Assembly: GCA_947378785.1 (NCBI GenBank)
Contig: CANCLK010000012.1
Span: 1-54,438 of the forward strand
Source: Comamonadaceae bacterium
GTDB lineage: Bacteria; Pseudomonadota; Gammaproteobacteria; Burkholderiales; Burkholderiaceae_C
DNA length: 54,438 nucleotides
Direction: 5' to 3'
This document shows positions 10,225 through 38,661 of this stretch, in pieces; position 1 is the stretch's first letter, and the number at the start of each line of letters is the position of its first letter. Position numbers and translations under genes: made by a program. The notes below the pieces were generated by a model. The model did not search any database. It saw nothing but the letters and a program-made list of their open reading frames with translations, and was not told the DNA's origin.

Positions 10225-10300
10225 GCCGCTTTAGCTCAGTTGGTAGAGCAGCTCCTTCGTAAGGAGAAGGTCGTCAGTTCGACTCCGACAAGTGGCACCA
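10225..10300 (+). tRNA. tRNA-Thr(CGT)
   Basis: A 76-nt cloverleaf with encoded CCA. The acceptor stem is GCCGCTT with AAGTGGC, the D-arm is AGCTCAGTTGGTAGAGC, the anticodon loop is TTCGTAA with anticodon CGT at 10258-10260, and the T-arm loop is TTCGACT. Anticodon CGT reads ACG threonine codons. The sequence closely resembles enterobacterial thrW. The tRNA is followed by a strong terminator and then by a more A+T-rich accessory stretch; tRNA 3' ends are common integration sites, but no integrase or second copy of the tRNA end is visible here. Confidence 0.97.
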
Positions 10301-37274: not shown

Positions 37275-38366
37275 TCAGGAGCTGAAAAGGAAGTTCATCA
37301 CGTCGCCGTCTTTAACGACGTAGTCTTTGCCTTCAGCGCGCATTTTGCCGGCGTCTTTGGCACCCTGCTCGCCTTTGAAAGCGATGAAGTCTTCAAACGC
37401 GATGGTCTGCGCGCGGATGTAGCCTTTTTCAAAGTCGGTGTGAATCACGCCGGCCGCCTGCGGACCGGTGTCGCCCACATGGATGGTCCAGGCGCGCACT
37501 TCTTTAACGCCAGCAGTGAAGTAAGTTTGCAGACCCAGCAGCTTGTAAGCGGCGCGAATCAAACGGTTCAGACCCGGCTCAGACTGACCAAGTTCTTCGA
37601 GGAACATCTGCCGATCTTCGTCACTCATCTCCGACATCTCGGCTTCCATCTTGGCGCTGATGGCGACCACTGGGGCATTTTGCGAAGCGGCGTAGGCCTT
37701 CAAGCGATCCAGAAAGGGATTGTTCTCAAAACCGTCTTCAGCCACGTTAGCGACAAACATCGCCGGCTTGGCCGTGATCATGAAAAACTGCTGCAACAGC
37801 GGCAGTTCTTCTTTGGTGAATTCAAGTGTGCGCACAGGCTTGGCTTCGTTCAGTGCGGCTTGGCACTTCTCCAAAATAGCGACCAGCTTGACCGACTCCT
37901 TGTCGCCCGAGCGCGCCAGTTTGGTGACACGGTGCAAGGCTTTTTCAACCGCGGCCAAGTCAGCCAAGCAAAGTTCGGTCTGGATCACTTCAATGTCATC
38001 AATCGGGTCGACCTTGCCGGAGACGTGGATCACGTTGTCGTCTTCGAAGCAGCGCACCACATTGATGATGGCGTCGGTCTCGCGGATGTGCGCCAAAAAC
38101 TTGTTGCCCAAACCTTCGCCCGTGCTGGCACCAGCCACCAAACCGGCGATGTCCACAAACTCAACAATCGCGCGCTGAACCTTTTGCGGGTTGACGATGG
38201 CAGACAGCGCATCCAGTCGCTCGTCAGGCACCTCAACGATGCCGACATTCGGCTCGATCGTACAGAAGGGGTAGTTCTCCGCCGCGATGCCCGCGTTGGT
38301 CAAAGCGTTGAACAAAGTTGATTTACCGACGTTGGGCAGGCCGACGATGCCGCACTTCAAACTCAT
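37275..38366 (-). CDS. ychF: Redox-regulated ATPase YchF (Obg-family)
   Basis: A 363-aa protein, exactly the E. coli length. G1 is [12 protein letters not shown] (residues 9-20), G3 is DIAGLV, and the G4 position has NVAE instead of NKxD, which gives YchF/OLA1 its ATP preference. The C-terminal TGS domain includes [16 protein letters not shown]. It binds ribosomes and acts in stress and translation control. The frame is open 80 codons upstream, but ATG 38366 with AAGGA eight bases before it is the start. Codons 38-47 are exactly complementary to a 29-nt stretch of the leader (38406-38434). Confidence 0.96.
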
Positions 38367-38434
38367 GAAAATATCCTTAGAAATCAATGTCCCGATTGCA
38401 TCATTGAGCCGAATGTCGGCATCGTTGAGGTGCC
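38227..38434. repeat. Perfect 29-bp inverted repeat bracketing the ychF start
   Basis: The arms are 38227-38255 (inside ychF, codons 38-47) and 38406-38434 (ychF leader, 40-68 nt before the ATG). The 29 bases beginning GGCACCTCAACGATGCCGAC in one arm are exactly the reverse complement of the other, with 150 nt between. The spacer holds the ychF Shine-Dalgarno and start codon. Confidence 0.95.
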
Positions 38435-38661
38435 GAATACGCCCCATGAGCCAATGGCGCGACCAGCAAGCAAACCCGAAAAGCGGGCGGGGAAAGGGTG
38501 GTTTGAACTGGTGCAGATTGTACTGATCAGTGAAGCCCTCCTGCAGAAGACCCCGCCGCGATTGCAACAGACAGACGCATGTGTCACCAAACGCAAAAAT
38601 CACCAAAAAAAATTAATCAATCGATAAACTGAAAATTCATCACTTTCGATTGGCGTTATTT

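Follow-up and report, generated by a model that had tools for sequence, protein, structure and literature searches.

An inverted repeat at the start of ychF is probably the scar of an integrative element that targets the gene

Islands that rebuild the 5′ end of a conserved gene are known from dusA and prfC. According to the available portions of the reports, islands in the 5′ end of dusA replace the gene start and supply a promoter (PMC4482086, PMC8409611), and SXT does likewise at the 5′ end of prfC (PMC8409611). A pneumococcal prophage that adjoins ychF is described, in the accessible part of the study, as changing the promoter and the expression of ychF upon integration and excision (PMC6375853), and in the abstract on KplE1 the promoter of the integrase gene intS overlaps the attachment site and is autoregulated (PMC2951348). 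Here we describe an inverted repeat that joins the leader and the coding sequence of ychF in a stretch of 54,438 nucleotides (nt) from a Comamonadaceae bacterium (contig CANCLK010000012.1; the whole stretch is called the window below), and we propose, with a probability of about 0.9, that the repeat is a scar left by an integrative element whose target is ychF.

The ATG of ychF lies at 38366-38364 on the minus strand. Bases 38406-38434 in its leader are the exact reverse complement of bases 38227-38255 inside the gene (29 of 29 bases), and the match can be extended to 32 nt at 97% identity; relative to ychF, the leader arm occupies positions −68 to −40 and the coding arm nt 111-139. An earlier note on this DNA had considered the repeat to be beyond chance in 54 kb, and we reach the same conclusion, the chance of an exact 29-base match being far too low by our own estimate (4^−29 per position pair). 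The note had also raised an assembly error as an objection. The repeat is not an assembly artefact, because the same geometry recurs in many separate assemblies and because G005, the nearest relative of the window, has the identical 29-bp pair; an error at this site is excluded.

The ychF 5′ end could be oriented in 154 of 156 loci (L001-L030 and L046-L171), two being without a usable start, and 153 of these were scored for an inverted match between leader and coding sequence, one having been dropped for too little upstream sequence. Of the 153 loci, 19 (representing 18 distinct sequences) reached a score of at least 22, and the highest score among 760 shuffles was 18; the lowest carrier scores 22, and the next-best loci score 17. 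In all 19 carriers the end of the leader arm lies 13-37 nt ahead of the start position that was used, and the match begins at ychF nt 88-109. The arm is present in 13 of the 74 scored Polaromonas loci, for which the query had been the YchF protein or the gene's 3′ end and not the leader. In a larger set, which is enriched for carriers because a carrier leader served as the query in part of the search, 40 of 207 distinct ychF 5′ regions score at least 19 (maximum of 2,070 shuffles, 18). The carriers include records of Polaromonas, Rhodoferax, Limnohabitans and other genera besides. Because the same inverted copy is found at the same place in many ychF loci, the repeat is not a private regulatory hairpin.

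The structure of an insertion is preserved in several relatives. L020 and L021 each have, some 0.9 kb upstream of the working gene, a second copy of ychF nt 1-98 that is truncated and in direct orientation. Two copies of the ychF start are present in G476 and G573, 7.0 and 9.6 kb apart, respectively, and in both genomes a gene with Phage_integrase and Arm-DNA-bind_3 domains adjoins the working ychF on its upstream side and is divergent from it; Pfam identifies the same two domains in the integrase of G567. Over ychF nt 7-99, the direct repeats are identical at 93 of 93 positions in G476, G071, G466 and G510 (in the last case on two contigs), at 92 of 93 in G573 and at 83 of 93 in G237, and their spacing ranges from 4.3 kb (G071) to 10.4 kb (G466). 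The truncated copies end at nt 97-102, and most continue into a conserved left end. A search for this left end gave hits in 4 of 89 genomes from a related genus and 7 of 87 from Polaromonas, and none in G000, the draft genome in which the window makes up the whole of contig 12. The integrases of L255, L256 and L299 are 60-72% identical and the serine resolvases of the same three loci 65-81% identical; the resolvase-domain protein and the 358-residue protein of G237 do not match those of the other elements.

The leader and gene start of the working ychF differ from those of the truncated host copy. In G004, which has an older insertion, similarity to the host relative L023 over nt 1-36 and 68-98 is seen in the truncated copy and not in the working one; in its middle part, however, the truncated relic resembles the working copy. 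Because it is the relic, and not the working copy, that resembles the host relative, we conclude that the element brings the new gene start. In the mechanism that we propose, a tyrosine recombinase encoded by the element would join it to ychF at about nt 94-99, in codon 33, as the ends of the repeats suggest. The comparison of loci shows that the chromosomal ychF start is left behind, truncated, at the far end of the element, and that the working ychF receives from the element a leader, codons 1-33 and a promoter region that is presumably active. The suggestion of the earlier note that the leader arm derives from the coding arm as an inverted copy is supported. The note had also proposed looking for the leader arm in relatives as a check on a regulatory role; close relatives do have the arm, but owing to the mobile element.

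A search with the G476 integrase as the query, instead of leaders, was carried out over 87 Polaromonas genomes and 399 genomes of the family. It gave matches in three of the former (G071, G092 and G101, all damaged) and four of the latter (G476, G237, G466 and G415), and in six of these seven genomes the integrase adjoins a ychF whose leader carries the arm. All eight loci with an intact integrase gene (int) carry the arm, with scores of 26-45. No match of the integrase to known plasmids or phages was seen at 1e-40 or 1e-20.

The features of the window are collected in Table 1. Window positions 38499-38544 align with the int region of G092 over 46 bases (score 32, against a maximum of 17 in 500 shuffles), and the nearest relatives of the window present int in successive states of decay, with full length and one stop in G092, two fragments in G101, and short remnants in G104, G005 and G103. 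A consensus promoter scan found no promoter at the TACAAT sequence, so the promoter call is one made by eye. Judging from these alignments, the window is a decayed scar that has lost the element and almost the whole of int, with the arm left as a relic in a domesticated leader.

Table 1. Features of the ychF locus in the window (nt, nucleotides of ychF counted from its start; ORF, open reading frame)
Feature	Position	Strand	Basis
ychF coding sequence including stop; target gene of the element	37275..38366	-	ORF; relatives in 60 of 61 genomes
ychF nt 1-99, segment carried and duplicated by elements as direct repeat; sole copy remaining in the window	38268..38366	-	direct repeats in six other genomes, ending at nt 99-102
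Putative crossover region, ychF nt 94-99 (TAYCCC)	38268..38273	-	ends of direct repeats in relatives
Wide coding arm, ychF nt 103-149 (codons 35-50); exact 29-bp part 38227-38255	38218..38264	-	
Leader arm, inverted copy of ychF nt 103-142, 34/40 identical; exact 29-bp part 38406-38434	38397..38436	-	
Shine-Dalgarno-like TAAGGA of the element-derived leader	38374..38379	-	sequence; common to carriers
TACAAT, probable −10 box in the element-derived ychF promoter; lies antisense to the opening codons of int	38517..38522	-	by eye; common to carriers
Remnant of the int 5′ end, about 12 codons, int start at 38511	38511..38544	+	alignment with G092; within ORF 38430-38627

Several observations weigh against the interpretation of the repeat as a scar. 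The window lacks a left end, a second ychF copy and a working integrase, and none of the three was found in the G000 genome either (85% complete). Excision or integration of the element was not observed. Finally, G415 has only a broken integrase fragment, with no ychF start in the 15 kb fetched.

A protein of about 365 amino acids without a Pfam match is common to three of the ychF elements (L256:3844-4944 and L299:17084-18172, about 34% identity; also L050) and may be a core gene. The 10.4-kb element of G466 (L299:9937-16132) contains a type I restriction-modification set of HsdM, HsdS and HsdR, as identified with Pfam and PADLOC. In L277 (G071), a 4.3-kb insertion with a truncated int and catalase-, rhodanese- and cytochrome c′-like genes lies between perfect repeats of ychF nt 1-99. 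The truncated ychF copies of L257, L259, L279, L280 and L297 already have an element-type leader themselves, which makes these second-wave insertions; some ychF genes have thus been hit by elements repeatedly.

In the region that separates int from the new ychF start, the element carries the stretch of its target that comes next, nt 103-149, in inverted form, and the most likely function of this copy is that of a DNA recognition site. We regard this putative role as quite conceivable, at somewhat less than even odds. According to this hypothesis, the integrase or a partner may select its target by reading those bases of ychF that are conserved and not at wobble positions. The presence of this site next to int may allow the protein to bind there as well, either to autoregulate int or to assemble the attachment complex. 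More tentatively, the arrangement might be a single device, in which the inverted mimic of about 47 bp lies beside int, the recombinase or its partner reads the conserved codons and ignores wobble positions, and the mimic, lacking the codon-34 half-site, is bound without being recombined. As mimic and target flank the ychF start symmetrically, one protein could then control int, excision and ychF transcription.

The pattern of conservation was examined in the eight loci with intact int. The arm matches ychF at 271 of 320 positions over nt 103-142 and at 46 of 64 over nt 143-150, and then at 43 of 120; at codon 34, which adjoins the putative crossover, only 6 of 24 positions match. Mismatches of the arm to its own coding arm at codon positions 1, 2 and 3 number 7/112, 6/104 and 36/104 in these loci, and 66/434, 48/403 and 122/403 in 31 decayed loci, three loci with a long damaged int and five carriers or near-carriers with an arm below 26/40 having been left out of the test. 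Positions 1 and 2 taken together differ between intact and decayed loci (13/216 versus 114/837, p = 0.0015, a value that is optimistic as the sequences are related), whereas position 3 does not (36/104 versus 122/403, p = 0.41). Arm identity is slightly higher where the integrase has at least 200 amino acids (34.6 versus 32.6 of 40, one-sided p = 0.033).

The relation between the arm and its target depends on the distance at which it is viewed. Among 40 carriers, own pairs match better than shuffled partners (32.9 versus 31.2 of 40, 0 of 10,000 permutations, relatedness not having been removed), and where the target sequence is a different one, as in two further genera, the arm differs in the corresponding way (38 and 30 of 40). 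At sites where the coding sequence differs from that of the nearest relative (39 carriers), the arm agrees with its own coding arm at 74 and with the relative at 63 (p = 0.39), and in the window alone at 0 and 3, respectively. Thus, the arm tracks its target between clades, because own pairs surpass shuffled ones and the two further genera have correspondingly different arms, but not at the species level, where the co-variation that the earlier note had suggested looking for is not seen.

Against a recognition role stands the small number of loci with intact int, only eight and mutually related, and the loss of int is confounded with the age of the insertion. In G237, an intact locus, the arm matches at only 30 of 40 positions.

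An alternative is that the element picked up the arm by chance and that the arm is functionless, with its similarity to ychF stemming from repeated or recent capture and exchange with host genes. This is a serious possibility, if not one that we would favor. The third codon positions are as free as among hosts (36/104 in the intact loci), the arms resemble the ychF of the host clade, and six of the eight loci with intact int came from a leader-based search. The presence of the arm in all eight argues against an accident, as do the difference at codon positions 1 and 2 between intact and decayed loci and the sharp boundaries of the arm at nt 103 and about nt 149, with codon 34 unlike the target and a flanking leader that could not be aligned by eye between elements.

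Another hypothesis, close to that of the earlier note, is that the repeat forms a cis-acting hairpin in the messenger RNA (mRNA) that regulates translation or decay of ychF and is kept by selection on pairing. The predicted fold includes the stem and is stable (−111.4 kcal/mol, z = −5.07, with none of 200 dinucleotide shuffles as stable), and by this prediction the hairpin can still form physically in the mRNA. The better match of own pairs would also agree with selection on pairing, and the mismatch types lean to G-U (105, versus 49 A-C). However, the share of G-U is the same for non-own pairs (0.66 versus 0.68), and at invariant coding sites transversions dominate (45, with 29 G-U and 14 A-C). 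Species-level co-variation fails, as described above, and the arms are less like the target where int has been lost. The Rfam search at gathering scores yielded only a transfer RNA at 10225-10297 in the window and no RNA family for the repeat. The constraint at invariant bases, the freedom at wobble positions and the decay after loss of int fit a protein recognition site better than RNA pairing, and we consider a conserved regulatory hairpin improbable.

We also regard as quite improbable that the arm is translated in some recombination product, where it would extend ychF codons 1-33 toward int. YchF residues 35-47 are kept in the reading direction toward int in five of the eight intact loci, and the frame is often open to near the int start, but no peptide conservation follows the arm, the G237 frame stops right after it, the frame is not in a constant relation to int, and neither a joined nor a flipped junction turned up. 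A recombinational inversion between the arms that flips the ychF start, as the earlier note had envisaged, is very improbable; although relatives do have inverted repeats about 145 nt apart next to a recombinase gene, the fetched loci contain no flipped junction, a search of 89 genomes of one related genus with the exact pattern only gave none either, and codon 34, beside the putative crossover, is not kept in the arm. That the arm was made anew in this genome by local template-switch or gene conversion is hardly credible, for while a perfect 29-bp block between weaker flanks resembles a copy tract, the arm occurs at the same position in several genera together with element features, and the window arm shares the leader sequence of its clade and fits the coding arms of relatives better than its own.

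Other ychF leaders were noted in passing. L007, L010, L012 and L139 have another Polaromonas leader type, with a tiny open reading frame (ATGATTTCTAAGGAATA..) that includes the Shine-Dalgarno sequence and has its end at, or directly beside, the ychF start; translational coupling is possible. L013 has a different imperfect inverted repeat with arms of 31 nt at about −178 to −67 of ychF, which resembles a small dispersed repeat.

If the repeat is the scar of an integrative element, a puzzling hairpin becomes a diagnostic signature of mobile elements in the ychF leader of 13 of the 74 Polaromonas loci, and the exchanged first codons of ychF look foreign in one lineage at least. The scar would mark an island site in Burkholderiales, where the cargo of intact elements includes, for example, a complete type I restriction-modification set. 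The inverted mimic also opens to experiment the question of how a protein-coding target is retained by a tyrosine recombinase in the face of synonymous change.

The closest described systems are the dusA islands, in which, as far as the available text of PMC4482086 and PMC8409611 goes, a tyrosine recombinase likewise enters the 5′ end of a conserved gene and the original 5′ end is found at the other end of the island. The target of the present elements is ychF and not dusA, and their direct repeat is about 93-99 bp, compared with the 21-bp attachment (att) sequences given for dusA in the same texts. The inverted target copy is a further difference. It was not found in one E. coli dusA with an adjoining int (score 14, shuffle maximum 16); the Nissle dusA locus has no adjoining int and was uninformative, and VG48B2, a truncated dusA copy, was left out of this test. 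The word "inverted" does not occur in the main text of PMC4482086. SXT has another target, prfC, and one E. coli prfC insertion likewise had no inverted target copy (score 9, shuffle maximum 13, with no int annotated in the stretch). An inverted mimic as a general trait of elements that target 5′ ends was thus rejected on these two insertions, which are few as comparators.

The Streptococcus prophage and satellite sites, in the parts of the reports at hand, are intergenic, upstream of ychF, with an att of 14 bp (or 26 bp), and the coding sequence is not entered (PMC6375853, PMC10383233). These pneumococcal sites were the only ychF sites obtained in an open-access literature search, with none in Burkholderiales. 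KplE1 provides a model for the proposed role of the arm; it concerns integrases associated with transfer RNA genes, and its abstract describes no inverted target copy (PMC2951348). The ychF elements have the features of islands that rebuild a gene 5′ end, namely a recombinase beside the target, direct repeats with a truncated start, and a new leader and start with a putatively active promoter. A precedent for the recognition of conserved coding sequence is Tn7, whose TnsD reads glmS codons; Tn7 differs from the ychF elements in being a transposon that relies on a dedicated targeting protein instead of a tyrosine recombinase. In their mode of action the ychF elements are like the dusA islands, with another target. 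Although islands that rebuild gene 5′ ends are known, the use of ychF as a target in Burkholderiales and the inverted mimic of that target appear to be new.
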